A stretch of 64,000 nucleotides of DNA from Candidatus Accumulibacter cognatus (lineage in GTDB: Bacteria; Pseudomonadota; Gammaproteobacteria; Burkholderiales; Rhodocyclaceae): positions 3,095,553-3,159,552 of the forward strand of contig CP058708.1 in NCBI GenBank assembly GCA_013414765.1, written 5' to 3'. A program made the translations under genes and the position numbers. The notes under the pieces were generated by a model. It saw nothing but the letters and a program-made list of their open reading frames with translations, searched no databases and was not told the DNA's origin. Positions 10,699 through 44,048 of the stretch are shown here, piece after piece. Numbering within the stretch: position 1 is the first letter of the stretch; each line of letters opens with the position of its first letter.

Positions 10699-10914
10699 GA
10701 ACTTCGGGGCATATGGCGCTGGTGCACATTTTGCCGGACATGGCTTTTTGGACAATGGCTTGCGAAAATACTTCGGCATACGGGCGCCGCGTGTTGATTT
10801 TCAAGGGAAAAGAGGATTTTCGTGCGCCTGGACGGGAGCACGGGAGCGTTGTTTCGCCCGCGCCCCGAAAAGAGCCGTTAAATTCCTTGACGATCATCGG
10901 GTTGTGGAAGTAGA
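10699..10914 (+). promoter_or_regulatory. CRISPR leader
   Basis: This 216-bp non-coding stretch joins cas2 to the first repeat. It sits at the end with intact repeats, while the far end of the array is degenerate, so this is the leader side where new spacers enter and array transcription starts. A TTGACG at 10887-10892 could be a -35 box but no convincing -10 follows. No other gene is seen here. Confidence 0.7.
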
Positions 10915-12447
10915 GTGAAAACTAAGCCCTGCCGATAAAGGGATTGAGACATTTTTTACTCTCTTTCTTTTACTAAGTTTTTTTGTGAAAACTAAGCCCT
11001 GCCGATAAAGGGATTGAGACCGAATATCCTTTTTCGCATTGTCTGGGATATCGATCGGGGTGAAAACTAAGCCCTGCCGATAAAGGGATTGAGACCGAAT
11101 TCGTATCCGGCATTGGTTCCAGGACCCCATGTGAAAACTAAGCCCTGCCGATAAAGGGATTGAGACACGATATCGGATCCACGATCTAAGCGCTCCTTGA
11201 GTGAAAACTAAGCCCTGCCGATAAAGGGATTGAGACTTAGCGCCTTGTTCCATAGTTTCTCCTCTAACGGAGTGAAAACTAAGCCCTGCCGATAAAGGGA
11301 TTGAGACGTTAGTAGGTTGTCTCCATTACCGGTCAGATATGATGTGAAAACTAAGCCCTGCCGATAAAGGGATTGAGACTCACGGTTAAGGTCTACTTCG
11401 TCCGCCCTGTCGACTAGTGAAAACTAAGCCCTGCCGATAAAGGGATTGAGACGTGTCGGCCATTACCTCAGCAGCAGCTTTAGCTGCGGTGAAAACTAAG
11501 CCCTGCCGATAAAGGGATTGAGACAAAACATTGCTGACCCTATCAGAAATGAACAAGGGGCGTGAAAACTAAGCCCTGCCGATAAAGGGATTGAGACTTT
11601 TCGTAACCCGCGAAGGGATACTTCGAGAGCAGTGAAAACTAAGCCCTGCCGATAAAGGGATTGAGACCAGTCAGCGATGAATGACCCAGGAAGCATCTCC
11701 CAGTGAAAACTAAGCCCTGCCGATAAAGGGATTGAGACATGATGAGCGATGAAGTATAAGCCACAGCTTGACCTGTGAAAACTAAGCCCTGCCGATAAAG
11801 GGATTGAGACCCAATAATCGCTCTGTTGTAAGTCGAAAAGCAGGCGGTGAAAACTAAGCCCTGCCGATAAAGGGATTGAGACTCTGAGGCCTGGTTGGCT
11901 TGGAGGTTTATCACCCTCTGTGAAAACTAAGCCCTGCCGATAAAGGGATTGAGACCCGCCGGTCTCTCTCTGTCCCTTCTCTTTATTTCGTGAAAACTAA
12001 GCCCTGCCGATAAAGGGATTGAGACAATGAGTCTTAAAGCGCAGCGTGCTCGATTCACCTTGGTGAAAACTAAGCCCTGCCGATAAAGGGATTGAGACAT
12101 GTTACGTGAATCCCGAAAGGCGAATTCAAGAATTCGTGAAAACTAAGCCCTGCCGATAAAGGGATTGAGACCTCAGTTCGTTCGCCAGCTCATGATTCTC
12201 GTCCCACGTGAAAACTAAGCCCTGCCGATAAAGGGATTGAGACGTAGCTGAGGAAGCTACATCGGGAACCCCCTGCTGGGGTGAAAACTAAGCCCTGCCG
12301 ATAAAGGGATTGAGACCCATACGTCAGGGTTTGATTGTCATCTTCACTGTGGTAGTGAAAACTAAGCCCTGCCGATAAAGGGATTGAGACGCGAATTCAA
12401 GAACTCGGTTAGCCAGGCGAACAGTGTGAAAACTAAGCCCTGCCGAT
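10915..12447 (+). CRISPR. CRISPR array, 21 spacers, 36-bp repeat
   Basis: There are 21 complete, essentially identical 36-bp repeats (GTGAAAACTAAGCCC... to ...AAAGGGATTGAGAC) starting at 10915, 10985, 11060, 11131, 11201, 11272, 11344, 11417, 11489, 11562, 11632, 11703, 11775, 11847, 11920, 11990, 12063, 12136, 12208, 12281 and 12355. A 22nd at 12426 is cut after 22 bases at the IS boundary. Spacers are 34-39 nt. The repeat contains a CCCT/AGGG hairpin and ends in ATTGAGAC, the expected 8-nt crRNA 5' handle for Cas6 processing in type III systems, so transcription is rightward. Spacers are markedly lower in GC than the host; the first is under 20% GC. Confidence 0.99.
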
Positions 12448-20741: not shown

Positions 20742-21569
20742 TGGACGATCTTACCGAGACTTGCTGCCTGATGGACGACTTTTACAAAGCTTTCGAACCC
20801 AACTCAACGCCCGGCTGCTGACCGATGGCAAGCGGCATCGGTCGAGGAAAGGCAGCCTGTCCGTGCCGGAGTTGATGACGCTGGTCGTGCTGTTCCATCA
20901 GATACGCTACCGACCTATCAGCGGCGTATCGAGTGGCTGCCACGCTGCGCGATCGCCCTGGCCGCCCTGTTCGAGGAACTCACGGGCCAGTGCTCCGGGG
21001 TGTCGATTGCGGATTCGACTCCTCTCTCCGTCTGCAAGAACTTGCGGATTCCTTGCCACCGGGTGTTCCAGGGCATGGCGGCGCGCGGCAAGAGTTCGAC
21101 CGGCTGGTTTTTCGGTTTCAAACTCCATTTAGTCATCAATCACTTGGGCGAACTGCTCGGCGTCAAGCTGACCCCAGGCAATGTCGATGACCGCAAGCCC
21201 TTGTGCGACTTTGCCGAGCGGCTCTTTGGCAAGCGGTATGCGGACAAGGGCGATATTGCCCAGTGGCTGACTATCTTTCTCAAGGATCTCGGCATCGACT
21301 TCGTGTCCAAGGTCAGGAAAAACAGGAAGCCCGTCGCCCTCGATCCCTTCGACCAGGCGATGCTACGGCAGCGATCCCTCGTGGAAACCGTCATCGACGA
21401 ACTGAAAAACCTCTGTCAGATCGAGCATACCCGCCATCGCTCGCCCATCCATTTCGCTGTCAATTTGCTGGCTGGCCTCGTCGCCTATGGCCTGATGCCC
21501 AACAAGCCCAGACTACCGCTTCAGGACTTCCGCCGGCTCTCGCCGTCTCCCAAACTTATCCCGAACTGA
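20742..21569 (+). pseudogene. IS982-family transposase, disrupted
   Basis: The pieces MDDFYKAFEP, LNARLLTDGKRHRSRKGSLS, VPELMTLVVLFHQIRY, CSGVSIADSTPLSVCKNLRI and TGWFFGFKLHLVINHLGELL are diagnostic of IS982 transposases. The frame shifts after FEP, and about 30 residues normally found after HQIRY are deleted where a further frame change occurs. The last 189 codons (21000-21569) are open and contain RSLVETVIDELKNLCQIEHT. The element is inactive. Confidence 0.88.
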
Positions 21570-21772: not shown

Positions 21773-22252
21773 ATGTATGCGATGCGGGGTTTCGTCCTGG
21801 TGACGGCTGTTTGTGGGGCAGTGGCTTCTCCCTGTCTGGCGGAATCCCCGAAAACAGTCCCCCTGCCCGGAGTGCAGTCCCTGGTTGAACGTCACAACAA
21901 GGCGTTTGACGCGCAGGATCTCGAGGGCGTGATGGCGACCTATTCCTCGTCGCCCGGTGCCGTCCTGTTGGGTACCGGTGCTGGCGAAGCCTATCTGGGC
22001 GGGGAAGGGATCTCCGCTGCTTACGCTCAGTTCTTTACCAAGTTCAAGCCGAACAGCATCAGTTTCAGCAACCAGTGGATTTCAACCGGTGCGAGCGGTA
22101 ACATCGCTTGGTTTGCGATGACCACCACGATGAAAGCCCCCATCGACCAGGAAACGCGGGAACGCGCCTTCAACATGTCCGGAACCTTGCAAAAGGAGAA
22201 AGGCCAGTGGCGTTTTGTCAGCATGCACTTTTCCCGGCTGGGTGCCGAGTAG
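21773..22252 (+). CDS. Secreted SnoaL-like (NTF2-fold) protein
   Basis: A 159-residue protein with a Sec signal peptide (MRGFVLVTAVCGAVASPCLA) and a DUF4440/SnoaL-type cone fold: LVERHNKAFDAQDLEGVMAT, LGTGAGEAYLGGEGISAAYA, and the closing WRFVSMHFS strand. AGGAG lies seven bases before the ATG; a TTG one codon earlier is less likely. Such small NTF2-fold proteins recur beside GRRM-type radical SAM peptide clusters, which fits its place here. It would act in the periplasm, perhaps binding or processing the modified peptide, but the role is not established. Confidence 0.85.
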   Translation: MYAMRGFVLVTAVCGAVASPCLAESPKTVPLPGVQSLVERHNKAFDAQDLEGVMATYSSSPGAVLLGTGAGEAYLGGEGISAAYAQFFTKFKPNSISFSNQWISTGASGNIAWFAMTTTMKAPIDQETRERAFNMSGTLQKEKGQWRFVSMHFSRLGAE

Positions 22253-22487
22253 TAGGGCCGGCGAAAGCATCTGAGGAACGTTCAAAAAACAACCTGCGGA
22301 AATTCATTGCTGGACTGGGAAAACGCGGGGATTCCATTGATCAGCTTTCGCAAATTGTTTTTGAAACCTTCCAGAGTGAAGCGCATGAGGCCGTCGAACC
22401 GATCCGCATGGTACTTTGCCTCTGGTTTGAGACCAGTTCCTATGGGGTCATGGCCGGATTTTTGCGAGCAGGAAACCGAGGTTGAAT

Positions 22488-22811
22488 ATGAAAGACGATA
22501 TGAAATCACAGCAGGGAACTGACGACAATACAGCCGACGACACGATGTTGACGGGGCGGAGAGACTTCCTCCGCAGTCTCAACAAGTGGTCCAAGGTCGT
22601 CATCGGCAGCGCCCTCTTCGGTGGGGCAATGTTGAAACTGGGTGCTGTGCCGGACGCCGAGGCGGGCGCCTGGGCCAACCGCGCGGGCGGAGGCGGTGCC
22701 TGGGCCAACCGCGCGGGCGGAGGCGGTGCCTGGGCCAATCGTGGCGGCGCCTGGGCCAACCGTGGCGGCACTTGGATCAATGGCGGCGGTTCCTGGGTCA
22801 ACCGCTTCTAG
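22488..22811 (+). CDS. RiPP precursor with W-x-N repeats and Tat-like leader
   Basis: The 107-residue precursor has a leader with a twin-arginine-like motif (TGRRDFLRSLNKW) and a hydrophobic stretch (VVIGSALFGGAMLKLG), then AEAGAWANR marking the core. The core holds four WAN units plus one WIN and one WVN, spaced by Gly-rich linkers and ending WVNRF. An aromatic-x-Asn triad repeated in Gly is the signature of three-residue cyclophane substrates of radical SAM/SPASM enzymes (GrrA/OscA-like families). GAGG lies seven bases before ATG 22488. It is followed by the partner and maturase genes. Product activity is unknown. Confidence 0.85.
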   Translation: MKDDMKSQQGTDDNTADDTMLTGRRDFLRSLNKWSKVVIGSALFGGAMLKLGAVPDAEAGAWANRAGGGGAWANRAGGGGAWANRGGAWANRGGTWINGGGSWVNRF

Positions 22812-22960
22812 CCGCTCACTCTTTTCCCCTTCCCGTACTGCCTGGCGCGGGAAGCGGGATAGCAGATGCATACGTCTCGGTTTCCGCGCGTCACCACGGG
22901 AAGACGATGTCCTCGGTCAATCAACGGCGATATCCTTGGTAGTCCGCGAAAGTACGCCTC

Positions 22961-23788
22961 TTGACTGATTCACTCTTGTACAACGTCCCGCTTGCCTTGG
23001 TCGATGCCTATCGGGGACGTCATCTCGTGGTTCGTTCCCGGGATCCCGACCTGATCAGCGCAGCACTCTCGACGAAGGACTGCGACGACCTCGCCTATGT
23101 GCAGATCCTCGGCCTGAGTGCGCCGGTGGACGGCCTGTTGCGCTGGGAATGCGGGACTCCTCTCGATCTGGTGGTGGAAAAGCCGACCGAAGAGTTGCCG
23201 CTACTCTACAAGTACTCGCCCTTGCTGACCGACCGACCAGTTCGGGTTTCGGTGCCTTTTGCGCCTGGGTTCGGCAAGGTGGTGAGGCTGGCGATATCGC
23301 TTGATTTCGCAGTGAAGCTCGAAGGATCTCAGCCAGCGCATTCCCTCGCCGAAGAGCTGCTTGGCGTGGCCAGCGATTACCTTTACCGGCCGAGTGTCTC
23401 GGTGCCCGTCGAGTTCTTCCACAGCCTCTTCCTGGCTTTTTTTCGCCAGGAGCCAGTGAGCCTCTGGGCCGTGCAGGAGGAAGATCCTCGCCGGATCCGC
23501 TACGTAACCGACCAGAACGAAGAGACTGTCGGCAAGCGATTCATCGGCATGGCGCCGCCATCCGATTTCAACGAATTTGTCAGCGCGCAGATTGCCGGGT
23601 TGATCACGGAAGGGGGGGAATGCCGAGGATGCGAATTCGTCGATAGCTGCTCCGGCTATTTCAAATGGCCCGCTAGGAATTATCGCTGCGACACCGTCAA
23701 GGTCCTATTCCGGACGCTCGCCGAGGCAGCAAGGGAGTTGCGGAGCGATCTCGCTGCATGCCCGACGAACGGGACAGGAGCTGCGTGA
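22961..23788 (+). CDS. Cys-rich partner of the radical SAM maturase
   Basis: I do not recognise a named family. The 275-residue protein has no signal peptide. Its C-terminal region carries CRGCEFVDSCSGYFKWP followed by a Cys in NYRCDTVKVLF, a SPASM-like cysteine arrangement that could hold an Fe-S cluster. The N-terminal 200 residues have no visible motif. TTG is the only sensible start in this frame and has no strong ribosome site. Its TGA overlaps the GTG of the maturase, so the two are translationally coupled. It is probably an accessory that binds the precursor or supports the maturase. Confidence 0.7.
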   Translation: MTDSLLYNVPLALVDAYRGRHLVVRSRDPDLISAALSTKDCDDLAYVQILGLSAPVDGLLRWECGTPLDLVVEKPTEELPLLYKYSPLLTDRPVRVSVPFAPGFGKVVRLAISLDFAVKLEGSQPAHSLAEELLGVASDYLYRPSVSVPVEFFHSLFLAFFRQEPVSLWAVQEEDPRRIRYVTDQNEETVGKRFIGMAPPSDFNEFVSAQIAGLITEGGECRGCEFVDSCSGYFKWPARNYRCDTVKVLFRTLAEAARELRSDLAACPTNGTGAA

Positions 23789-24939
23789 AGCCTCCTTTTT
23801 CCCTCATCCTGCTGCCCACACTGCGCTGTAACGCCGATTGCGAGTACTGCTTCGAGACCCGAACCGAAGATCGACTTACCCTGAATCAACTTGCCGTCGT
23901 GCTCCGGAAGGTCCTTGACTACATGCAGGACCGGCAGATCGACACCTTGTCCATCTACTGGCAGGGCGGTGAGGTGATGACCCAGCCACCCGAATGGTTC
24001 GAGCGCGCCCATGAACTCGTCCAGGAGATTGCGACCGCCCGGGAAAAGCGAATAGGCAATTACCTGCAGACCAACATGATTGGTTACGGCCCGAAATGGA
24101 AACCGGTCATCACGGAAATGTTTGGCAACAGCCTGGGGACTTCGATGGATTTCCCCAATCTCCACCGCCGCGTCAAGGGTGGCACGCCGCAACAGTATCA
24201 GGACCTGTGGGAAAGAAAGGTTCTCGAGGCCAGGGAAGCCGGCATCGAGATTGGCGTCATTGCGATACCCAATGCCGGGACCGTCGAAGCCGGAGCGGAG
24301 GCCTTCTATTCCTATTTCGTCGACCGTCTTGGAATCCGGGATTTTCAGGTCAATACGCCCTTCCCGGGAGGCATGTCGAAAGCGGTGAAGTGTGCTCATC
24401 CTCTGGAAACGGAAGACCTCAGCCGCTTTCTACTGGAGCTGGCCGATATCTGGGAGAAACGAGGTAGGGACGCAGGTGTACGAATCGGACCCTTCGACAA
24501 GCTGCTCGCCTACTTCGAGCAGGGCACGAAAGACCTGCTCTGCATCTGGCGCGAGAACTGCGCAAACGAATTTGTCTGTATCGATCCCCGTGGGCACGTA
24601 GCCCAATGCGACTGCTGGGTCAGCAGTTATCCCGAGTATCGCTTTGGCAACATTCTTGATCCGGTCAGCCTCTCGGATCTGCTGCGACGGAGCGATGCAC
24701 GCCGGGAGTTCCAGATGAGACCCGGTTCTCTGATACAAACCGAAGAGTGCCTGGATTGTGACTACCTCGCCATCTGCCACGGCGGATGCCCGGTGAGAGC
24801 CTACAGCGTTCACGGCGACATTCTTACGAAAGATCCCTATTGTGACCTGTACAAGAAGATCTTCGCCCGTATGGAAGCAATGTCGGGAGGGGGCTGCCAC
24901 ACAACGGCCGGAATTTCGACGGAGCCGACCGTGCCGTAA
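23785..24939 (+). CDS. Radical SAM/SPASM peptide maturase
   Basis: The N-terminal radical SAM motif CNADCEYC (CxxxCxxC) follows SLILLPTLR, and GGEVMTQPPEWFERAH supplies the SAM-binding GGE. The C-terminal SPASM domain has the cysteines CIWRENC, CIDPRGHVAQCDCW, CLDCDYLAICHGGC and DPYC for two auxiliary clusters. Enzymes of this class crosslink an aromatic side chain to a residue two positions on. With the W-x-N precursor next door, Trp-Asn cyclophanes are the predicted product. The GTG at 23785 with AGGAG five bases upstream is preferred over an upstream ATG (23758) lying inside the partner gene. About 384 residues. Confidence 0.92.
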   Translation: MKPPFSLILLPTLRCNADCEYCFETRTEDRLTLNQLAVVLRKVLDYMQDRQIDTLSIYWQGGEVMTQPPEWFERAHELVQEIATAREKRIGNYLQTNMIGYGPKWKPVITEMFGNSLGTSMDFPNLHRRVKGGTPQQYQDLWERKVLEAREAGIEIGVIAIPNAGTVEAGAEAFYSYFVDRLGIRDFQVNTPFPGGMSKAVKCAHPLETEDLSRFLLELADIWEKRGRDAGVRIGPFDKLLAYFEQGTKDLLCIWRENCANEFVCIDPRGHVAQCDCWVSSYPEYRFGNILDPVSLSDLLRRSDARREFQMRPGSLIQTEECLDCDYLAICHGGCPVRAYSVHGDILTKDPYCDLYKKIFARMEAMSGGGCHTTAGISTEPTVP

Positions 24940-28138: not shown

Positions 28139-29167
28139 CTAGGTGATTGTAGCTTGTTTTTCAACGAGTTGGCAGGGGTGTTCGCAAGTTTTCAATGGGC
28201 CTGTCGAGATGTCTCCCGTCAGGCCGTCGGTGAGCGTGTATCGCCCCAGTCCGAACACGGTTTCCTTGCCGACATGCAGCCATTCTCCGAGTTGCAGCAA
28301 CGGGGCGAAAGGCGCGAGCGGACCTTCGAGCCGCCAGGTTCCGACTACCCCGCCGAGGCTCATCTTCTGCTGCTGTCGCGACGAATAGCGGGTCCAGTCG
28401 AGCCAACGGAGGTTCTTCTCCTCACGGATGCCGGTACAGGCAGCGCGGAGCGTCGCGAAGTCATCGACCAGAGCACTCGGTGAATAAAACTCGGCAAGCA
28501 GGTTGGCGCGCCGCGCCAGCGCCATCAGCAGTGTTCGTGCCTGTAGTCTGTCCGGTGGCAGGGCACGGCCGTTCTGCTGTAGGCGCAGGGGGGTTTCAAA
28601 CCGGAGTGTGGCCGTGCTCGTCCGCGAATCGTCGGATTCGCCGACCAGCGCAATCCCCTGGTCATGCGTCGCAATCGTGCCGACTTCGGGGCGATGAATT
28701 TCCTGATCGCCGTGCTCACTGCAATGGACGACGCGGACGAGATCCGCCGTTCCGTCACCCGCACCGATGCCGCGTGCGAGGGCGCGCCGCCAGGTGAGGA
28801 GGATTAGCGGCAGTTCCTGCAACGCCCGCCCGATCAGCACCTGATGAAAAATCAGGGTCTCGCCCGCCGCCAGCACTCGACATCCCCAGTCCGACGGCTC
28901 GATGATGTAGGGGGCGGGAATCTGTGAGAACTTCTGCAGGCGATGCGCCGGGGGAGGGGGCGGGGCGAAGATCGCCGGATACGGGCAGGTGGCGAGCAGC
29001 GGACAGCCGGCACACTCCTTCTGCCGGGTCATGCAGGCAAGCTGGCGCAGGGCGTGGCCGAAGGCGCCGCGCAACATCGATCCGGCGTAGTCAGGCAGGC
29101 GGATGGTCTGCCGCACCTTAAACTCGAAGCGGTAGCGGGCGACCGGGAAAGTGTTGGCGGCGTTCAT
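28139..29167 (-). CDS. cas6: Cas6, pre-crRNA endoribonuclease (RAMP)
   Basis: Cas6 cuts repeat RNA to release crRNAs with an 8-nt 5' handle. The 342-residue protein is of the longer Cas6 type with a Cys cluster (CAGCPLLATCPYP) and the Gly-rich C-terminal RAMP motif KETVFGLGRYTL. The RNA-binding N-terminal fold (YRFEFKVRQTIRLPDYAGSM) is visible. Its ATG overlaps the csm5 stop (ATGA). The shared 3' half of both repeat types in this window suggests one Cas6 could process both arrays. Confidence 0.9.
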   Translation of the reverse strand: MNAANTFPVARYRFEFKVRQTIRLPDYAGSMLRGAFGHALRQLACMTRQKECAGCPLLATCPYPAIFAPPPPPAHRLQKFSQIPAPYIIEPSDWGCRVLAAGETLIFHQVLIGRALQELPLILLTWRRALARGIGAGDGTADLVRVVHCSEHGDQEIHRPEVGTIATHDQGIALVGESDDSRTSTATLRFETPLRLQQNGRALPPDRLQARTLLMALARRANLLAEFYSPSALVDDFATLRAACTGIREEKNLRWLDWTRYSSRQQQKMSLGGVVGTWRLEGPLAPFAPLLQLGEWLHVGKETVFGLGRYTLTDGLTGDISTGPLKTCEHPCQLVEKQATIT

Positions 29168-30780
29168 GAGGCACGCAGCACCGAGAGCTTGAGCTTCTTG
29201 CGCTCATCCTTGAGGTCGACCCTGACGACCTTTGGCAGCCAATGCTCGATGGCGTCGGCGGCGGCCTGTCGCTCGGCCTGCGGCCAGGCGGCGGCGTCGC
29301 CGGCGAGCGCCTTCGCCTTGGCGTGGTCCTCGCCATTGGCGTTTACCAGTTTGCCGCGCAACTGCTCGGCGCGGGCGGCGAAGTCGCTCTTGAACGCCTC
29401 GATACGGCGCTGGTTTGCGGTCATCGAGGCAAGACCGCGCTGCCTTTCCTGCTCGGCCGCGGCTTCGGCACACTCGGCCGCGGCTCTGGCCTGCTTCTCG
29501 CGGGCGAGGTTGGCCGCGGCTTCGGCGCGCTGCGCCTGTTCTTCCCGGAGGCGAAGCAGGCGATCCTGATGTGCTTCGCGCAGGAGTCTGCTGCGCGCCC
29601 CGAGTTGCTGTTGCACGGCGTCCGAGAGGTGGCGGTGACGGTCGTCGCAGGCGTCGACCCAGATCCAGCCGAAAGGCAGCAGCCCGCTGTCGCCGGCTCG
29701 GGTGAGGCTGGCGTAGCGCTTTTCGGTGGTATTGGGGCGAAAGTCGAAAGTTTGCCTGCCGTTGACGCGCGGGCCGAGGATTTTGATGCTGCGCAGGCCG
29801 CCGAGGGTCACCGATTCAGCGCCCGAATGGTGGCCGACGCGCAGCAGGAAACCCTGCCGTGCCTGGATCAGTTCGCCAAGTTCTTCGCCGAGAAGGCGGG
29901 AGATCAACCGCGCCCAGTCACGGTCGAGCAGCGCGCCGAGCACCGGGTGCTGCAGTTCGGCTTCGAGCTGCGGGCGGTAGAAGCCGTTGCAGGCGTCGCA
30001 GAGGGCTTCCCAGCGAATCGTCGCGCCGGGGCCGAAGCGCAGCTCGCCGAGGAAGGACGCCGGCAGCGCTTCCGGGATCGTTTCGAGGAACACCTTGAGT
30101 TCCGGCGATGGCCGTTCGTCGTCGCGTGGCGGGCGCTTCTTCTTGCTGATCGCGTAGAGCACGCGCGTCGGTGGCGGCGTGCTGTCTTCCTCGGGGTGCG
30201 CGTCGGCGAGCGCCAGGTGTCGGAAAGGATCGTTTTCGAACTTGCCGGCGGTGTAGCCGAGCAGACGCTGTTCGAGGCTGCGCGCGGCGCCTTTTTTGTC
30301 CTTCTCCTCGGCCGGAGTGAGTGGTGAATCGGCGTTCAGATGGTGCAGCCAGGCGGTGCGGATGCTGCCCTTGAGCGAGCTGCCGGGCAGATACGGGGTG
30401 CCGTCGAAAGGCCGGAAGGCGGTACGGGCGAACTGAAAGCTGTTGTAGGTGGCTTCGCCGCCGGGGTCGCGCTGCGTCGGCCGGCCGGCCTTTGTGGCGT
30501 ATTCGCGAGCGAGCTCCCCGGCGACGGCCACCTGCTGCGTGGCGAGTTCGGCAAAGCGCGCGGCGCCATCGCGAAAGAAACGCTGGATGGCGCCGATCGG
30601 GTCGCGTTGGTCGGCCATCGCGGCGAGGCGCTTGCGCTCGCTGTCGCTCAGCGATTCGGCAAGGTCGGCCGGGTCGAGGACGTGCAGCAGGTCCTCGTGA
30701 ATGACGAAGCCGCTCGGCTCATAGACTTCGCCGCAGCCGATGTGAACCGGCGAGAGGGTCGAGAGGGCCAGCGTGGTCAC
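29164..30780 (-). CDS. csm5: Csm5 with a long C-terminal coiled coil
   Basis: Csm5 caps the crRNA 3' end of the type III-A complex and recruits maturation nucleases. The GTG at 30778-30780 overlaps the csm4 stop (GTGA). RAMP features: LSTLSPVHIGCGEVYEPSGF, FQFARTAFRPFDGTPYLPGS, then SLKGSIRTAWL, and a Gly-rich LRSIKILGPR region. Residues about 400-538 form an Ala/Glu/Arg-rich heptad-like segment (LLREAHQDRLLRLREEQAQR... EAAAEQERQRGLASM) that typical Csm5 proteins of 350-400 residues lack. The full length is 538 residues. Confidence 0.88.
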   Translation of the reverse strand: MTTLALSTLSPVHIGCGEVYEPSGFVIHEDLLHVLDPADLAESLSDSERKRLAAMADQRDPIGAIQRFFRDGAARFAELATQQVAVAGELAREYATKAGRPTQRDPGGEATYNSFQFARTAFRPFDGTPYLPGSSLKGSIRTAWLHHLNADSPLTPAEEKDKKGAARSLEQRLLGYTAGKFENDPFRHLALADAHPEEDSTPPPTRVLYAISKKKRPPRDDERPSPELKVFLETIPEALPASFLGELRFGPGATIRWEALCDACNGFYRPQLEAELQHPVLGALLDRDWARLISRLLGEELGELIQARQGFLLRVGHHSGAESVTLGGLRSIKILGPRVNGRQTFDFRPNTTEKRYASLTRAGDSGLLPFGWIWVDACDDRHRHLSDAVQQQLGARSRLLREAHQDRLLRLREEQAQRAEAAANLAREKQARAAAECAEAAAEQERQRGLASMTANQRRIEAFKSDFAARAEQLRGKLVNANGEDHAKAKALAGDAAAWPQAERQAAADAIEHWLPKVVRVDLKDERKKLKLSVLRAS

Positions 30781-31730
30781 GGTGCGGACTCCAGAGCGAG
30801 GGGAGCAACGGGGGCATAGCCCTGTTGCACGGTGGCGGCTTCGGCCTTGGAGAGTCTGCCGGCGCCACCGAGACCCTGGCCGATGAAGGGACGGGCGGCA
30901 AAGCCGCTGGCCGGGACCAGTACGGCGCCGCTGGCGGCGAGCAGCACCGGCGTCTTGAACGGCTGGCCGGCGACCGCCAGGGTGTTGCCGTGGCGGCCGA
31001 AGCGGGTGAGCACGCGCCAGTAGCTTGACGTGCCGACGAAACCCTGGCCCTGCGGCGCGCACGGGGCGAGCGTCCAGTAGGCGTTGGCGCCAGCCGGGGC
31101 AGCAAAGGCCGTGGGTGCGATGCCTTCCAGCGTGAACTTGCCGAGGCCGACGCTGGCGTCGCGGCCGAAGCCGCTGCTGCCGATCGCCAAGAGCAGGCTT
31201 GCCGCCTCTGCCGCCGTGAGGCGTTCGCTATCGAGCACCAGGTAGAGATCGATGCGCTGTCCGGCGCTGTGGCAGGTCTGCGGCACGCTGTAGGGGGCAA
31301 AAGCGCCTTCTCCGGTGCTGCCGGTGAGGCGGTTGAGCGTGTTGTGCGCCTGCATGCTGCGCTGCGGCGCCTGACCGTAGGCCGTGGCGTCATCGACGGC
31401 GTTGGCGAGCTGGATGGCCAGACGCTCGCCGCTGCGCGCGGCGGCCAGCCAGCGCTGCCGTTTGGCGGCCTTGCGCTGTGCCGGATCATCCACGGTTGGG
31501 GAGAAATGCTGCGGCAGCGTCGGTCGCGGCAGGTAGCCCGCCGGGAAGCCATCAGAGACCACCAGCCAGGGACTTCCCTCGGTATAGCCTTGGAGGCGGC
31601 GGCGCAGTTCGGCCTCGCCGGCCGCTTCGCGCAGCGCCCAGCAGAGCTGGCCGAACAGCGTGTCGCCGGCGAGCGGCGTGCCGAGCGGGGTGTGTAGCGC
31701 CAGCGTGGCGCGATGGAGGACATGCGGCAT
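30777..31730 (-). CDS. csm4: Csm4, crRNA 5'-handle-binding RAMP
   Basis: The 317-residue protein has the Csm4 pattern: HTPLGTPLAGDTLFGQLCWA near the N-terminus, PWLVVSDGFPAGYLPRPTLP, SMQAHNTLNRLTGSTGEGAF and the Gly-rich SSGFGRDASVGLGKFTLEGI. Csm4 holds the crRNA 5' tag and contacts Cas10. It lies four bases after csm3 and overlaps csm5 by four. Confidence 0.9.
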   Translation of the reverse strand: MPHVLHRATLALHTPLGTPLAGDTLFGQLCWALREAAGEAELRRRLQGYTEGSPWLVVSDGFPAGYLPRPTLPQHFSPTVDDPAQRKAAKRQRWLAAARSGERLAIQLANAVDDATAYGQAPQRSMQAHNTLNRLTGSTGEGAFAPYSVPQTCHSAGQRIDLYLVLDSERLTAAEAASLLLAIGSSGFGRDASVGLGKFTLEGIAPTAFAAPAGANAYWTLAPCAPQGQGFVGTSSYWRVLTRFGRHGNTLAVAGQPFKTPVLLAASGAVLVPASGFAARPFIGQGLGGAGRLSKAEAATVQQGYAPVAPLALESAP

Positions 31731-31733
31731 GCT

Positions 31734-32444
31734 TCAGGCGCCCGTCGGGAAAAGGGGGAGGGCATCGAAAGTGGTCTGGATCGGGGTCCCGTCGAGTGCC
31801 AGCCCGCTCAGGGCCACCTTGCCGTAACCGCGCGAACCGGAACCGCCGAGACTGTCGGCGGTGAGCAGCTTCAGGCCGCGCAGCAGCAGCGGCAGCAGAT
31901 CCTCGTCGTCGATGACCTTCAGCGACAGCCGGAAATCGAACTCGGCACCGGCGATGACGCGCTCGGTGAAGCGCGGGTTTTCAGCGACGCCGGCGATGCG
32001 GTTGATCGAATTTTCGCTCTTGGCCTCGGTGCTGAGCAGGTTGCGCGCGTGGGCCTTGGCCAGCCACTCGGCATTGAGCAGGCAGTCCCAGAAGGCGATG
32101 CGGGTCGGTCCGATTTCATTGACCAGTCGGTCGACCTCGCCGCCAGGCGCGCCGCCGAACAGGCGCAGCAGATCGCGTGCTTCCCGGTTGTCGTGTGTGG
32201 CGAGGTGCTGGAACGAGAAGGGATGGCCGTTGCTGATGCCGACCAGGCCGAGCTGCCATTCGAGCAGCGAGCGGATCTTGCCTTTGAGCGATGATCCGGG
32301 GATGTACGGCTGGCCGTCGAGCGGATTCTTGACGACCGGGTTGTCGGTGCCGCCGATACGCATTTCGGTATCGCCGGCGCCGATGTGCAGGCCGGTCTTG
32401 AGGGTCAGTGTGGCGGTGAGCTGCTTGATCCGGGTGAGTTGCAT
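31734..32444 (-). CDS. csm3: Csm3, backbone RAMP and target-RNA nuclease
   Basis: Repeating backbone subunit that cuts target RNA every six nucleotides. The 236-residue protein carries GLHIGAGDTEMRIGGTDNPV, in which Asp34 corresponds to the known catalytic Asp of Csm3. It also has PYIPGSSLKGKIRSLLEWQL and the Gly-rich ADSLGGSGSRGYGKVAL loop. The nuclease site looks intact, so RNA cleavage is predicted. Confidence 0.95.
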   Translation of the reverse strand: MQLTRIKQLTATLTLKTGLHIGAGDTEMRIGGTDNPVVKNPLDGQPYIPGSSLKGKIRSLLEWQLGLVGISNGHPFSFQHLATHDNREARDLLRLFGGAPGGEVDRLVNEIGPTRIAFWDCLLNAEWLAKAHARNLLSTEAKSENSINRIAGVAENPRFTERVIAGAEFDFRLSLKVIDDEDLLPLLLRGLKLLTADSLGGSGSRGYGKVALSGLALDGTPIQTTFDALPLFPTGA

Positions 32445-32464
32445 TGTGTTTTTCTCCCTGGGGG

Positions 32465-32836
32465 TCAGGCGCGTAGCGCCTTGAGGAAACCGAGGACGGC
32501 TTCGAAGTGGAGGCGGAAGTGGTCGAGTGCCTTGGCGTTGGTGGTGGTCTTGAGGCAGTCACGGAACCACGAGACGAATTGCTCATCAACCAGTTGGCGC
32601 CCTTTGGCGTAGGCCACCTTGGCGTTGAGCATGCGGATGAAGGCCTCGTACTGGCGGAATTTCTCGTCATCGCCGTTGATGCGTTCCTGCCAGCCGACGA
32701 GTTCGTCATAGAAGCGGCGAATCTGTGTCGGCTTGTTGAGATGGCGGGCGGCCTGATCGAGTCGGGTGGCGACGTTCTCCGCTTCCGTGTTGAACAGTTC
32801 GGCGTCGGGTGGAATGGCAGCCAGATTGATGGGCAT
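32465..32836 (-). CDS. csm2: Csm2, small subunit of the type III-A complex
   Basis: A 123-residue, mostly helical protein: QIRRFYDELVGWQERINGDD, YEAFIRMLNAKVAYAKGRQL and FRLHFEAVLGFLKAL fit the Csm2 small subunit that lines the inner filament and contacts target RNA. It lies between cas10 and csm3, the usual place. Confidence 0.92.
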   Translation of the reverse strand: MPINLAAIPPDAELFNTEAENVATRLDQAARHLNKPTQIRRFYDELVGWQERINGDDEKFRQYEAFIRMLNAKVAYAKGRQLVDEQFVSWFRDCLKTTTNAKALDHFRLHFEAVLGFLKALRA

Positions 32837-32916
32837 CGTGGGTTCTCCTTGGGGTCATTGTGCGGCAAGTGGGCGACAGAATCTGCTACGACAAGCTTGC
32901 GATGTGCGTTCTTCGA

Positions 32917-35568
32917 TCACTCGCGCTGACGGTAGAGCAGGACCGATAGCGGCAGGCGGTAAGCACCCTTGTAGGTGCCGAGCGCGCCGCCGATTTCGCG
33001 AATGGCGTCGGCCAGCAACTGCTCGCGTCGATTGCGCGCGGTTTCATCGCCCTTGACACGGTCGCGGAAGAAGCGCGCCAGCCGGTAATGGAGCTGCGAG
33101 CGCCAGATGGCGTCTTTCGGGAGGGTGCTTTCGGCACGGTCGGAGAGCTGCAGCAGGGCGTAGATGAGGCCGCTGGAAAAGCTTGCGCCGTGGCCGCCGG
33201 CGCGTGCCATGAGCGCTTCGAGCGCGGCCCGGCGCTGTTCCATCAGGGTTTGCCACTCGGTCCACGAGACGCTGCGCTGCCAGAGCGTGACGGCGTTCTT
33301 GCCAGGACGGTTTTTGGCTGCTGCCAGGGCCTCTTCGGCGTTGCGAGCGAGCTGGCGGATCGGAGTTTTCGGGGGATTCATCGAGAGACCCGCCGAGAAG
33401 GTGATCTGTGGGTTGGCGACATAGGCCGCAAATCTCTCGCGTAGCGTTGTGGCCAGTACGAGCGTCGAATCCCAGGGGCCGATCAGAAAGAAGTCGTCGC
33501 CGCCGGCGAAGACGGTATAGGTGTTGCGGTAGCGGGCGATACCGTATTCGTCACGACCGTGTTCGCAGAACCACGGTAGCCAGAGTGCGAAGAAGGCATT
33601 GACCTGGCGCGACAGCGAGGCCATCTTGGCGAAGGTCGGTTTTTCAAGGCCTTTCTGGAAGATCTCGCCGAGATTGTCTATGTCGCCCTTGATCGTCACC
33701 AGCGCGATTTCGCCTTGCCAGCGGTCGCCGCCGGTTGCCTGGCGGTCTTCGCAGGCGATCAGGTTCAGCGTCTTGATCGCCGCGCTTTGCGGCTCCGCCT
33801 CGACTTCCCAGCGGCCGTATTTGCCGGCGGTCTGCGCGTCGCCGGCGTCGAAGCGCGGCACGTAGCTATTGACGAAGCGCCGCGCGTAGCCACGCCAGAG
33901 CGTGCCGTCGGCTTCGGCGGCGTCGAAGTCCCAGACGCGCAGCAGCGTACCGTTGCGGGCCAGTTCGCCGTACTTGCCGGATTCCTCGGCGCAGGGGACG
34001 ATCGCCAGACGGTAGCCGAAATAGTCGAGGCCGAGATAGTCGAGGCCGAGCACCGGTAGCGATTCGGCCACGCGGGCGACGAGCAGGCGGGCTTGCCGGG
34101 TCAGTTGTTCGCCGATGCGGATCTGGTCGTCGGCGAGCAGCGATAGCGCATAGCCGCGATTCGCCGAAGACACGGGGTCGGCCGGGTGGCGGCCGTTGAT
34201 CTCGCAGACACCGAGCGTGTTGTCGAAGCGGTCGAGAAAATCGTCGAAGGTGCTGGTCGCGTCGGCGGTGCAGAGGTCAAAACGCTGATGCTTGGCGGTG
34301 TCGAGCGCGGCGAACAGGCGTTTGGTGAGTCCACCGAAACGGTCAGCGGTAAAGTCGTTGCATGAGGCCGGCGTGCTGGCGAGGCCGACGCCGATCTCGC
34401 CGTAGGTGTGCTTCAGGCACCAGTCGTTGAGTTCCCGGCGGCAGCGCGCAATGGCGGCATGCGCGTCGGCGGTGTTCGGGGCGACGATCAGGAACTTGCC
34501 GGCGGCGTTGATGATCTGCGACGTTGACGGCAATTGCAGTGCTTCGAGCAGCTTGAGGGCTGCGCATTCGGCGAGCAGCGAGACCTGGAACGAGCGGCCG
34601 CGCAGCAGTTTGTGCGCGTGCTTCTGCGTTGCGCCGCCTTCGGCGAAGATGAAGTCCTGGATGCCGAAGAAGTCGCCCAGGACGAGCAGGATCTTTGCTT
34701 CGCTCCAGCCCTCGCGAACAGCGCGCGCGTCTTTGCTTCCCTGCTCGTGATGCCAGCGCCAGAGTGCCGTGGCCAGGGCGGCGGTGGCCTTGCTGTGATC
34801 GTAGAGCGAGACCTCGGGCTTGACGCCGAAAGCGGTGGCCGACGGGATGGCGTGCGTCATGGTCAGCCACAGACTGTCGAAATGGTCCAGCCAAAGCGGT
34901 AGCAAACCCAGATGCGCCTTCGGGATTTTCCGGATGCCGCTGAGCAGCGCTTCCCACAAGGCGAGGTACTCGGCGCGGGCACTGGCGTTGTCGTGCGGTG
35001 TGCACGCGGCGGTGGCTTGCGGGAAGATGCTGGCCGGCGAAAGCGCTTGCAGCGGGTAGCGCCATTCGAGCTTGCCTTCCTCGATGCTGGCCTGGCCGAT
35101 CTGTTCGAAGAGCGTCAGCAGGCGGGCACGATAATGGTTCTCGCGCTCCTTGCTGTGGTTGTACTTGACGTCGAACTCGTCGCGTTCGAAGCCGGAAGCG
35201 ACGCGATCCGCGGTAGCCACGATCCATTGCAGGAAAGTGTCGGGCCGGTGGTGCGCGCTGGCGGCGTTGACCGCCGAGTCGGTGGCGTTGCCCTCGGCCG
35301 CCGTCGAAAAAGGCCGACAGTCGCGGCGCAGGTCGGGGAAGTGACCGGTTTCTTCGAGAGCATCCCAGGCCAGGCCGGTATACGCGGCGTGGATGTGGCT
35401 GTGCCAGCCGGCACGTGGGTTGCTGCCTTCCTGGTGCCAGGGGCAGTACAGCGTCTTGTGGGCGTCGAGCCGGCCGTGATGCTCGATTCCGGCGCGTTCG
35501 GCGAGTTTGCCGACGTCGTGCATGAAGGCGGCCAGCGCGACGCGGGTAGACGGTTCGAGGAGGTTCAT
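32917..35568 (-). CDS. cas10: Cas10/Csm1 with HD nuclease and GGDD cyclase
   Basis: Large subunit of 883 residues. The HD motif AFMHDVGKLAERAG (H17-D18) predicts single-stranded DNA cleavage. The second Palm domain has the GGDD box in TVFAGGDDFFLIG near residue 690, predicting synthesis of cyclic oligoadenylates on target RNA binding. Both active sites look intact. The two adjacent CARF-domain genes are the expected receivers of that signal. The 18-bp gap to the upstream CARF gene indicates one operon. Confidence 0.95.
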   Translation of the reverse strand: MNLLEPSTRVALAAFMHDVGKLAERAGIEHHGRLDAHKTLYCPWHQEGSNPRAGWHSHIHAAYTGLAWDALEETGHFPDLRRDCRPFSTAAEGNATDSAVNAASAHHRPDTFLQWIVATADRVASGFERDEFDVKYNHSKERENHYRARLLTLFEQIGQASIEEGKLEWRYPLQALSPASIFPQATAACTPHDNASARAEYLALWEALLSGIRKIPKAHLGLLPLWLDHFDSLWLTMTHAIPSATAFGVKPEVSLYDHSKATAALATALWRWHHEQGSKDARAVREGWSEAKILLVLGDFFGIQDFIFAEGGATQKHAHKLLRGRSFQVSLLAECAALKLLEALQLPSTSQIINAAGKFLIVAPNTADAHAAIARCRRELNDWCLKHTYGEIGVGLASTPASCNDFTADRFGGLTKRLFAALDTAKHQRFDLCTADATSTFDDFLDRFDNTLGVCEINGRHPADPVSSANRGYALSLLADDQIRIGEQLTRQARLLVARVAESLPVLGLDYLGLDYFGYRLAIVPCAEESGKYGELARNGTLLRVWDFDAAEADGTLWRGYARRFVNSYVPRFDAGDAQTAGKYGRWEVEAEPQSAAIKTLNLIACEDRQATGGDRWQGEIALVTIKGDIDNLGEIFQKGLEKPTFAKMASLSRQVNAFFALWLPWFCEHGRDEYGIARYRNTYTVFAGGDDFFLIGPWDSTLVLATTLRERFAAYVANPQITFSAGLSMNPPKTPIRQLARNAEEALAAAKNRPGKNAVTLWQRSVSWTEWQTLMEQRRAALEALMARAGGHGASFSSGLIYALLQLSDRAESTLPKDAIWRSQLHYRLARFFRDRVKGDETARNRREQLLADAIREIGGALGTYKGAYRLPLSVLLYRQRE

Positions 35569-35586
35569 GGGGTTATTGTCTCCGGG

Positions 35587-36759
35587 TTACGGCTTGAAGA
35601 GTTTGTTGCGCAGCGCCTTGAGCGTGGTGTGCAGGCGGCCTTCGTCGTCGAGGGTACGGGCTTCCTGCTCGGCACGCGGTCGGACGCCATGCGCGAGAGA
35701 ATTGCGCAGGTATTCCAGCTTGGCGACCTCGGGCTGCTGCGCGCGCGCACTGGCGTAATTTTTCTTGCGCAGTTCGAAGTCGGTGGGGTCGTCACTGCAC
35801 TGGTTGCAAGCACGCGTGACGAAAGCTTCGTACATGAAGGTGGCGGCGCGCAGGTAATCGCCGCGTTCGCGGTAGGCGTCGGCGAGCGACAGTTCCCAGT
35901 CGTCGCGCTTGCCGCGGCGAAACCAGCTGATGCGTTTCGTCAGCGTGTCCCTGAACAGGCTGCCGAGCGCCCCGACATGGGCTTCAACCGCAGAAAAGGC
36001 ACTGTTCAGCGTTTCGCGCGCACGCACGGGATTGCTCGTTCTCTCGAAGTAGGCAGCACGTGTCAGCAGGCGGGTTTGCCCTTCATCCATCCCGTCTGCC
36101 GCGAGCAGCGGTGCGAAAACGCCATAGTCTCCGTCCTTGTCGTAAGTGGCGAGCGCGTCGACCCAGTCGAGCATCTGCAGCAGGCCGCCGAGCGTGAGCA
36201 CCGGCGTCTCGCCATCGGGCGTCGTCATTTCGAGGGCACCGTAATAGAGTTGCTCGACCTTGACGCCGACGACGCGGGAAAGGTAGCGCGCAGCCACCAG
36301 TGCGAGCATCGGCAGGTGACGAAAACCGTGTGTGACGTCGAGGAAAAGGCTCTCTCCGGGCTGCACGATGCTGGCGAGCAGGTGGAGGATCTCGGCCTGC
36401 TCGGCGGCGTCGCGGGCGTAGGGGATGAGCAGACAATCGACGGGTATGCCGAGCTGCTGCTCGAGTTTTCGGCGTGGCAGTTCGAGCATGTCACGCGTGA
36501 CCTCGCCGGCCTCGACGGCGGCCATCAGCTGCAGTGTGGCATCGTCGTCGCCTCCGGGTGGGAAGAAGACATCCCACATGCTGCCGGCGGTGCCGACGAG
36601 AACGAGGCGATCGGGCTTCAGGTATTCGGTCAGGGCCATGCCGAAGAAAGCGACACGGCGGGAGAAGCCGGCTTCGAAGCGGTAGGTCGCGGTGCGGTAG
36701 CCGGTCTGCGGGTCTGCTTTGCCCTTGCCGAGAAAGCTGATGAGAGTGTTGATGGTCAT
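35587..36759 (-). CDS. TM1812-family CARF-HEPN ribonuclease (Csx1/Csx2-like)
   Basis: The N-terminal Rossmann-like CARF domain shows LISFLGKGKADPQTGYRTAT and the family hallmark LFLDVTHGFRHLPMLALVAA, which binds cyclic oligoadenylate. The C-terminal region carries YLRNSLAHG near residue 350, the R-x4-H active site of HEPN ribonucleases. When activated it should degrade RNA non-specifically, giving dormancy or abortive infection. 390 residues. Its ATG overlaps the stop of the NE0113-family gene (ATGA). Confidence 0.88.
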   Translation of the reverse strand: MTINTLISFLGKGKADPQTGYRTATYRFEAGFSRRVAFFGMALTEYLKPDRLVLVGTAGSMWDVFFPPGGDDDATLQLMAAVEAGEVTRDMLELPRRKLEQQLGIPVDCLLIPYARDAAEQAEILHLLASIVQPGESLFLDVTHGFRHLPMLALVAARYLSRVVGVKVEQLYYGALEMTTPDGETPVLTLGGLLQMLDWVDALATYDKDGDYGVFAPLLAADGMDEGQTRLLTRAAYFERTSNPVRARETLNSAFSAVEAHVGALGSLFRDTLTKRISWFRRGKRDDWELSLADAYRERGDYLRAATFMYEAFVTRACNQCSDDPTDFELRKKNYASARAQQPEVAKLEYLRNSLAHGVRPRAEQEARTLDDEGRLHTTLKALRNKLFKP

Positions 36760-37940
36760 GCTCCGGGAAGAATGTTGCTGATGGTGGCACCGATCTGCTG
36801 TGGCGCCTGGAAGGTGTCGTAACTGACCGCACTTGGCCGCAGGCCGAGGCTGTAGCGGCGCGGCCGGCTGCCGCCGTCGCTGATCAGGTAGGGCTCGGCC
36901 GCCGGGCCGAGTTCGCGCCTGAGAATCTTCTTGAGCTTCGAGAGGTGCGCCGAGAAATACTCGCCATCCATGCCTTTGCGCAGGGCACGCTCGGTTTCGT
37001 CGAGATCCTTCATTGGCCCGGCGATCCAGCGCAGTTCGACGAGATAGCGCTTCTTCCAGTCGGCATCGGCAAGTTCCTTGGCCGGCGCCGGCAACGGCGC
37101 TTCGCCGCGCAGCGCGCGCCGGGCGAAGACGCTGAGCAACGCGAGTTCGGCCGGCGGCAGCGCGAAGATCTTGCCGGCAGCACGCACGCGGCGCGCTTCG
37201 AGGTCGATCTGCAGTTCTGCCGGCGCCAGAGCGTGGCGCGCCGCTTCGACGGTTTCGTTGTAGCTCGCGCGACCGGTGAGCAGCGCTTCGGGAAGGCCGT
37301 GACGCAGGCTGACGAAGGGCAGTTCGGCGAGCGTGATCTGCGCTTGTGCGCTATCGACGAGTCGGCCGCCGGGCATTTCGAGAACGTGGCTGGCCGGCGT
37401 CGGGTAGTAGAAGCCGAGGCTGGCCTCGAAGGGCTCGGAAACCAGGACATGCGACAGCTTGTCCTGCGGGCGGCCGTAGAGCGACAGCGCATAGCCGAGG
37501 AAGAAGCCCATCGTCTTGCGGCCGCCGGCGATCGAGACATGGAGCGCACAATCCGGGTCGGCGGTGAACTCGCGGATGATGCCGGTGATGCCGTCGGCGG
37601 CGCGGCGGTTGTCTTCCGGCGAACGGATGTCTTCGAGCGGCTTGCCGTTGACGTCCTCGAGGACGTGGATGGTGTCGGCGCTGAAATGGATCGGCGGCAG
37701 CGCGTAGTCGCGGCTGAGACGGTGGAACCAGCCCGGTTCCTCCGAGAGCAACGCCAGGCGGGCTTTTTCGGCGCCGCTGCGCGTGCTGATCAGATGGATT
37801 TCGGTGGGAATGAACGGACTCGCTGTGGGCGCAACGGCCAGGGCGTAAAGGGTCTCGGTAACGATCTGCGGCGACAGGCCGGTGACGGCGATCAGGATGC
37901 GGCGAGGATATTCGTGGGGGTTTTCCCGGGCGTTGGGCAT
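36756..37940 (-). CDS. NE0113-family CARF protein with winged-helix-like C-terminus
   Basis: Residues 1-230 match the CRISPR-associated NE0113 (TIGR02584) family: RILIAVTGLSPQIVTETLYA, HLISTRSGAEKARLALL, HVSIAGGRKTMGFFLGYALS and GRPQDKLSHVLVSEPFE. Some databases call this group a ring nuclease. Residues about 255-375 (FALPPAELALLSVFARRAL... AHLSKLKKILRRELG and SRPRRYSLGL) look like a winged-helix DNA-binding domain of the response-regulator type. It heads the operon. It could destroy cyclic oligoadenylate, act as a signal-responsive regulator, or both. No HEPN motif is seen. Confidence 0.82.
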   Translation of the reverse strand: MPNARENPHEYPRRILIAVTGLSPQIVTETLYALAVAPTASPFIPTEIHLISTRSGAEKARLALLSEEPGWFHRLSRDYALPPIHFSADTIHVLEDVNGKPLEDIRSPEDNRRAADGITGIIREFTADPDCALHVSIAGGRKTMGFFLGYALSLYGRPQDKLSHVLVSEPFEASLGFYYPTPASHVLEMPGGRLVDSAQAQITLAELPFVSLRHGLPEALLTGRASYNETVEAARHALAPAELQIDLEARRVRAAGKIFALPPAELALLSVFARRALRGEAPLPAPAKELADADWKKRYLVELRWIAGPMKDLDETERALRKGMDGEYFSAHLSKLKKILRRELGPAAEPYLISDGGSRPRRYSLGLRPSAVSYDTFQAPQQIGATISNILPGA

Positions 37941-38182
37941 CGTCTTGTCTGAGCGGGTAGGGACAGACGGTCATTGTCCCTGTTTTTCTCCGGCAAGGAC
38001 GGATGGCAAGCTTGCGGCTTGCGGTGGCCAGGCTGGGGGCTGGCCGGTTCGTGGCGATCGAACAGGACTGGCCGTGGCCAGCGATAGCGCGAATGCCGCA
38101 GCAGGGGCCCGCCTCGGGCGGCCTGCTGCAGGTGGTCAAGAAGCCAATGTGGCTCTTGAATGGCCAGGCTTTGATGGGTGGT

Positions 38183-42409: not shown

Positions 42410-42979
42410 TTACGCCTTCACGCGCGACACATATTCACCCGAGCGCGTATCGCATCGGATGATTTCGCCCTGGTTGACGAACAGCGGCACCTTGACCGTC
42501 GCGCCGGTGGACAAACGCGCCGGTTTGGTGCCGCCGGTGGCGGTGTCGCCACGGACACCGGGCTCGGTTTCGACGACTTCCAGTTCGACGAAGTTGAGCG
42601 GGGTGACGGCCAGCGGGGTGCCGTTGTACAGCGTCACGGTGCACAGGTCCTGTTCCTTGAGCCAGAGTGCGGCGTCACCGACGGTGCTGTTGCTGGCCTG
42701 ATGCTGCTCGAAGTTTTCCGGTTCCATGAAATGGTGGAAATCGCCGTCGTTGTAGAGGTATTGCATTTCGCAGTCAAAGACGTCGGCGCTTTCCAGCGAA
42801 TCGCCGGATTTGAAAGTCTTTTCCGAGACGCGGTTGGTTTTCAGATTGCGCAGTTTGACACGGTTGAAGGCCTGACCCTTGCCGGGTTTGACGAATTCGT
42901 TTTCGAGGATCATGCAGGGGTCACCGTCCAGCATGACCTTCAAACCCGATTTAAATTCGTTGGTAGAATAGCTCGCCAT
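42410..42979 (-). CDS. efp: Elongation factor P
   Basis: The 189-residue EF-P relieves ribosome stalling at polyproline. Lys34 in [10 protein letters not shown] is the residue modified by EpmA/EpmB. The three beta-barrel domains include the ends [20 protein letters not shown] and [13 protein letters not shown] lies five bases before the ATG. The epmB start is only 28 bp away on the other strand. Confidence 0.97.
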
Positions 42980-43007
42980 TGCATCCCTCGTGAGATCGTC
43001 GATAAAT

Positions 43008-44048
43008 ATGAAGGGCGCCATGATAGCGCGAAGCCTCGCCAAATGGCAGGGCGAGGATGCACAGGCCGAGCCCTGGCAAGGGGCGCTGCGGACGGTGATC
43101 CGCGATGGCGACGAGTTGTTGAAGCTGCTCGGCCTTTCTCCGCAGGCGCTGGCCATCGACCGCCGTCAGGCCTTCTCCCTGCGGGTACCGCGAGCCTTCG
43201 TTGCACGCATGCGGCCAGCGACGCCCGACGATCCACTGCTCAGGCAGGTGCTGCCGCTGCTCGCCGAAAGCACATCGCAACCCGGCTTTGGCTGCGACCC
43301 ACTGGCGGAGGCCGAAGCCAACAAGGTTCCGGGGCTGATCCACAAGTTCCATGGACGCGTGCTGCTGATCGTGACCGGACATTGCGGCATCCATTGCCGC
43401 TATTGTTTCCGCCGCCACTTTCCCTATGCGGCAAGACAGGCGTCGCGGGCGGACTGGTCGCAGGCCTTCGACTACATCCGCCGCGATGCCTCGATCAGCG
43501 AAGTGATCCTGTCGGGTGGCGATCCGCTGGCGGTGGCGGATCGCCATTTGCAGTGGATGGTCGGCCAGATCGAGGCGATCCCGCAGGTCAGCCGTCTGCG
43601 CATTCACAGCCGCCTGCCGGTGGTGATCCCACAACGCATCACCCCCGCGCTGCTCAGCCTGCTGACCGATACCCGCCTGCAGGTGAGCCTGGTGCTGCAT
43701 GTCAATCATGCGCAGGAACTCGATGACTCGGTGGCCGCCGCACTCAAACCCTTGCGCCATGCCGGGATCGCGCTGCTCAACCAGACCGTGCTGCTGGCGG
43801 GCATCAATGACGACGTGGAGGTGCTCGCGGATCTGTCGGAGCGCCTGTTCGCCATCGGCGTCCTGCCTTATTACCTGCATCTGCTCGATCACGTGCAAGG
43901 TGCCGCGCATTTCGAGGTCGCCGAGCAAAGCGTGCGTGCCCTGCACGAAGCCTTGCTCGCGCGTTTGCCGGGCTACCTCGTGCCGCGCTTCGTGCGCGAG
44001 GTCGCGTACGCGGCGTCGAAGATTCCGGTGGGTTCGGTCGCGCCTTGA
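43008..44048 (+). CDS. epmB: EpmB, EF-P-specific lysine 2,3-aminomutase
   Basis: A radical SAM/PLP enzyme that makes (R)-beta-lysine for EF-P modification. The radical SAM motif is CGIHCRYC (C126, C130, C133), with [17 protein letters not shown] as in KamA-like proteins and [23 protein letters not shown] 43008 is one of several close starts (also 43020 or GTG 42990). It faces efp-epmA. Confidence 0.94.

Follow-up and report, generated by a model that had tools for sequence, protein, structure and literature searches.

A probable RiPP cluster with W-x-N repeats and a Tat-like precursor leader in Candidatus Accumulibacter cognatus

A four-gene cluster that quite probably makes a secreted multi-cyclophane peptide is present in Candidatus Accumulibacter cognatus. 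The genes lie on the + strand at 21773-24939 of the window, i.e. the whole 64,000-nucleotide stretch analysed, which comes from a complete genome of 5.17 Mb. In order, they encode: i) a SnoaL-like protein; ii) a RiPP precursor; iii) a partner protein; and iv) a maturase. All four members of the set named in the original prediction were found in place by direct reading. Maturase and partner would cross-link the precursor, the product would leave through the Tat system, and the SnoaL-like protein would act outside the cytoplasm. On its sequences, the cluster is best read as a triceptide-like RiPP variant that is new and Tat-exported. A DDE transposase gene lies just upstream (21000-21566).

The precursor (107 aa, 22488-22811, +) carries a core, GAWANRAGGGGAWANRAGGGGAWANRGGAWANRGGTWINGGGSWVNRF (22665-22808), with the six W-x-N triads that had been predicted: four WAN, one WIN and one WVN. 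By the W-x-N-R pattern it is the only gene of its kind in the genome. In 36 precursors, W-x-N units hold 263 of the 270 core Trp and 263 of the 272 core Asn residues, and the middle position accommodates 12 different residues (A, V, Y, I, G, H, F, L, N, K, S and D). The spacing is fixed and the surrounding residues are variable. Arg directly follows Asn in 203 of the 263 triads; otherwise Gly, His or Lys is often found there. The cores are basic and usually Gly-rich. The precursor family thus has the aromatic-x-residue triads with conserved spacing that mark triceptide substrates, and a fixed W-x-N with a free x is, as a sequence pattern, that expected for substrates of three-residue cyclophane formation. 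The cyclophane-forming enzymes XncB and OscB are known to make Trp-to-C-beta(Asn) links from residue i to residue i+2 (PMC11002830). In Competibacteraceae (L085-L096), where a second W-x-N precursor adjoins the partner gene, some triads of this second precursor are W-x-D.

A genome scan turned up 52 related loci, spread over at least seven bacterial groups. According to the record titles, these include Accumulibacter, Competibacteraceae/Contendobacter, Chromatiaceae, Syntrophobacteraceae and other sulfate-reducer groups, as well as Geobacter, Pyrinomonadaceae, Verrucomicrobiales, Armatimonadetes and Aminicenantes. The nearest named relative with the cluster is Candidatus Accumulibacter contiguus (maturase identity 98%). 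Plasmid-borne relatives were set aside as distant, with at most 26.5% identity among the matches listed. Two layouts occur: type A, snoaL-precursor-partner-maturase, as in the window; and type B, in Competibacteraceae, maturase-(snoaL)-precursor with the partner elsewhere in the genome. The four genes are the only ones conserved in type A loci, which share neither a sulfatase nor another exporter. The original prediction was to stand or fall with conservation of the precursor beside the maturase, and the precursor proved to be kept across phyla with W-x-N constant and x free. Most loci have it alongside the maturase, as do almost all type A loci whose flanks are long enough; the pairing is therefore not due to chance, and the case is stronger than first described.

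The partner, too, goes with the maturase. It is present in exactly the genomes that have a close maturase (4 of 61 relatives), and in a class sample both genes occur in exactly the same 3 of 369 genomes, counts that ignore phylogeny. The view that Competibacteraceae lack the partner was rejected, since 12 of the 13 genomes whose maturase loci lack a linked partner have it once elsewhere. In 11 of 12 fetched regions it sits directly beside the second W-x-N precursor; the twelfth region is cut by a contig end. Because these loci are split, simple gene adjacency does not cause the co-occurrence.

The maturase open reading frame spans 23758-24939 (+). Translation more likely starts at GTG 23785 than at ATG 23758, because homologues begin at the equivalent place and the GTG overlaps the partner stop codon by four bases (GTGA, 23785-23788), an arrangement that suggests translational coupling of the two genes. 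In the 393-aa numbering, the radical SAM motif CNADCEYC (CxxxCxxC) provides Cys24, Cys28 and Cys31, and the SPASM set is complete with Cys262, 268, 284, 331, 334, 340, 344 and 362. All these residues are invariant in 37 members, so the description of this protein as a radical SAM/SPASM enzyme with complete cluster ligands holds, and the precursor is linked to the type of maturase that triceptides require. All eight anSME-type auxiliary-cluster ligands are kept, which we take to be the full two-auxiliary-cluster set of anSMEcpe. An AlphaFold2 model (pLDDT 88.7) has anSMEcpe as its best structural match (Foldseek, TM 0.75-0.84), and the same protein is the best PDB match by sequence.

The curated models do not place this maturase in a named RiPP family. 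It scores 80.2 bits on GrrM/OscB (TIGR04261, cut-off 310), 69.8 on AmcB (NF041718, cut-off 425), 41.6 on XyeB/XncB (TIGR04496, cut-off 450) and 102 on DarE (cut-off 650). DynA gives the highest score of the curated RiPP-maturase models (132 bits, cut-off 450), and anSME (TIGR03942) gives 131.6 bits against a cut-off of 349; these two models match all 37 members with the best E-values. The window maturase passes no RiPP-maturase or anSME cut-off, only that of the general SPASM domain. Assignment to GrrM/OscB, AmcB, XyeB or DynA was accordingly rejected, and the anticipated difference from the GrrM/OscB and XncB forms is borne out by scores far below both cut-offs. A search of 299 genomes with the GrrM model gave no match in G000 at E <= 1e-60. 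A true anSME adjoins the cluster in Geobacter sp. GAC1 (L030; 485.8 bits on TIGR03942) and outscores the window maturase on the GrrM, AmcB and DynA models. Similarity of the maturase to known enzymes is therefore no proof of cyclophane chemistry, and it is the substrate pattern on which the cyclophane assignment rests.

Several known systems share parts of this design. GrrA/GrrM (OscA/OscB, TIGR04260/TIGR04261) also have repeated aromatic-x-Asn triads beside a radical SAM/SPASM enzyme, and the GrrA-type precursor of L079 has a signal-like N-terminus. The window precursor, however, scores 16.9 bits on TIGR04260 (GrrA/OscA1, cut-off 31), with a match to the core half only; its leader is Tat-like rather than Sec-like as in L079; and its set is completed by the partner and SnoaL genes. 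Cluster I ligands are missing from the GrrM of L079 and present in the window maturase, which keeps both auxiliary cluster sites, so details of the reaction may differ. The AmcA/AmcB system (NF041721/NF041718) likewise has a multiple-triad precursor. The window precursor has no match to the AmcA model; that of the relative L036 nearly reaches its cut-off (36.2 bits against 40, core only). The AmcB model is near GrrM (316 bits for the GrrM of L078), whereas the window maturase family is not. DynA, DarE and DarW (NF041298, NF038005, NF041300) are Trp cross-linking enzymes, DynA being the best-scoring curated model, but dynobactin and darobactin products are short antibiotic peptides, unlike the long Gly-rich repeat core. 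The anSMEcpe enzyme (PDB 4k36-4k39) shares the fold and the ligand set, including the Cys-Asp pair 284-285, at 24-25% identity, but in the window the context is a repeat precursor and no sulfatase. In bufferins (MNIO RiPPs, PMC12452194) the leader is also an export signal peptide, which a partner protein possibly binds, but the enzyme is different, the chemistry is Cys-based, and the signal is Sec rather than Tat-type. HxsC and pseudo-SAM SPASM proteins (TIGR03977, TIGR04347) resemble the partner as paired second radical-SAM-like proteins with weak similarity, but the partner lacks the radical SAM motif and matches no family significantly.

The partner (22961-23788, +, TTG start) is predicted to be a degenerate radical SAM/SPASM-like protein with one Cys4 site. 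A signature C-x2-C-x5-C-x-G-Y-F-K-W-P ... C is conserved in 26 homologues; Cys223, Cys229, Tyr232 and Phe233 are invariant, and Cys220, Cys242, Gly231, Lys234 and Pro236 nearly so (274-aa numbering from 22964). The partner gene is thus conserved, but the original description "Cys-rich" overstates it, since the single Cys4 site is all that is conserved. No Pfam or NCBIfam family fits. The AlphaFold2 model (pLDDT 90.8) has alternating strands and helices; Foldseek against the PDB gave no match at E <= 1e-3, with weak TIM-barrel matches only, and a sequence profile search of the PDB gave none. By hhalign, the second half of the partner aligns with the barrel end and SPASM domain of the maturase (probability 75%, E=2.6e-5), pairing Cys220/223/229/242 with the cluster II ligands Cys331/334/340/362. 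At the sequence level, the C-x2-C-x5-C ... C array thus matches a SPASM cluster II site. The radical SAM motif CxxxCxxC is absent, and 4 of the 26 homologues show weak HxsC similarity (best E 0.004). In L072 (3911-8728), a distant locus from Desulfosarcinaceae, a single frame encodes both a partner-like and a radical SAM domain. We infer from these data that the partner acts as a subunit of the maturase, binding the leader and/or relaying electrons; its reading as a cluster-II-type pseudo-maturase goes beyond the original prediction.

The precursor leader, GRRDFLRSLNKWS ... DAEA (22554-22664, +), looks like a Tat signal peptide, a feature absent from the original prediction, and export is predicted. 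A block RRxFLxxLxKWS lies 32-38 residues ahead of the first triad in nearly all precursors; RR and WS are invariant in all 37 aligned, and F-L nearly so. A moderately hydrophobic stretch follows in all 37, and 33 have an AxA close to the core; in the window precursor AxA ends the leader. With TatC encoded in the source genome, the usual features of a Tat substrate are present. The curated Tat models match weakly (TIGR01409 in 4 of 37 precursors, best E 0.03; PF10518 in 1 of 37, E 0.29) and KWS extends beyond the Tat motif, so the longer RR...KWS block may also, or mainly, be a recognition element. The L072 locus encodes a 529-aa protein whose N-terminus resembles that of a Tat lipoprotein and whose C-terminal part is a long W-x-N array, paired with a maturase of the window family; by its sequence, this pairing supports the same combination of Tat leader and W-x-N core. 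A literature search found no paper linking Tat, RiPP and radical SAM, triceptide surveys being outside its reach.

The SnoaL/NTF2-like protein (159 aa, 21773-22252, +) was predicted to be secreted, in agreement with a Pfam SnoaL_3 match (E=4.5e-16) and an N-terminal signal peptide judged by eye to be of Sec type. Most type A loci, and some of type B, have a homologue immediately ahead of the precursor gene. These homologues usually have a signal peptide, apparently lacking in the Geobacter-type loci L030 and L071. Our guess is that the protein binds or finishes the exported product. No paper linking SnoaL, RiPP, radical SAM and precursor peptide was found in a search that did not extend to triceptide surveys, where the family may already be listed.

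The proposed pathway would begin in the cytoplasm, where maturase and partner would link the Trp side chain of each triad to the beta-carbon of its Asn, with loss of two hydrogens per W-x-N, six times in the window precursor. The partner, as a pseudo-radical-SAM protein keeping a putative cluster-II-like [4Fe-4S] site, would probably bind the leader and/or relay electrons. The leader would serve at the same time as a Tat signal peptide; the peptide, with its cross-links in place, would leave via the housekeeping Tat system, and signal peptidase would cut at AxA, just ahead of the first ring. A dedicated transporter or protease would not be needed on such a route, which would account for the lack of a conserved one. 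Once secreted, the SnoaL-like protein would bind the product or act on it outside the cytoplasm. More tentatively, and at somewhat short of an even chance, the cluster may stand for a distinct RiPP class of Tat-exported, cross-linked, multi-cyclophane Gly-rich peptides, in which the leader is both Tat signal and recognition site, and the anSME-like enzyme depends on a degenerate radical-SAM/SPASM subunit with an extra cluster-II-type [4Fe-4S].

The strongest competitor, though an unlikely one, concerns the leader: the twin-Arg block may serve only for recognition by maturase or partner, with export by Sec or no export. Conservation of RRxFLxxLxKWS past the Tat consensus, with its invariant Trp-Ser, and the weak Tat-model matches would fit, as would the one GrrA examined (L079), with its Sec-like N-terminus and no twin Arg. 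Against this reading stand the invariant RR, near-invariant F-L, moderately hydrophobic stretch and AxA ahead of the core; the Tat-lipoprotein-like N-terminus of the distant L072 member and the lack of another conserved exporter also speak for Tat. A further doubt attaches to the ring itself. W-x-N might be modified by an i,i+3 or Trp-Arg link, an ether link, beta-hydroxylation or epimerisation, given that the maturase is as near to DynA and anSME as to GrrM, that Arg so often follows Asn, and that daropeptide enzymes form ethers as well as other C-C bonds on related motifs (PMC9055067). We regard this as rather improbable: the Arg is frequently replaced while Trp and Asn almost never change, and the W-x-N spacing stays constant as the flanking residues vary.

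It is very improbable that the W-x-N protein stays unmodified, as a Gly-rich protein of an extracellular or structural kind, and that the maturase acts on, for example, a sulfatase. Its closest solved structure is indeed an anSME, but Geobacter sp. GAC1 has a separate, above-cut-off anSME adjoining the cluster, which makes the window maturase family distinct from anSME, and it is the precursor and no sulfatase that type A loci conserve. Two further observations weigh against the preferred cross-linking and Tat-export explanation. Several Competibacteraceae loci showed no precursor beside the maturase, some of these genomes having one beside the partner; and in Ca. Accumulibacter contiguus the partner (L026, 5185-6028) is broken into two overlapping frames, as a pseudogene or through an assembly error.

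Elsewhere in the window, type III CRISPR-Cas genes (Cas6, RAMP proteins, Cas10/Csm1-like, Cas_NE0113) occupy 28145-37970 (-), and a CRISPR array lies at about 10900-12000, judged from repeated peptides in ORFs. A second radical SAM gene (42990-44048, +) was rejected as part of the cluster, as it reads as an EpmB-type lysine 2,3-aminomutase; it adjoins an EF-P-like gene (42410-43156, -) and looks ordinary. An RTX/cadherin-like repeat protein of 1640 aa is encoded at 46079-50998 (+).

The cluster represents a RiPP family that is both conserved and uncurated; its members come from bacteria of wastewater and anoxic waters, Syntrophobacterales among them. As many as 17 rings are predicted for a single short precursor, and still more for one long precursor. 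If the proposal is true, it would be an early case of RiPP export by Tat, and the partner would make the roles of auxiliary clusters and partner proteins in cyclophane formation directly testable.
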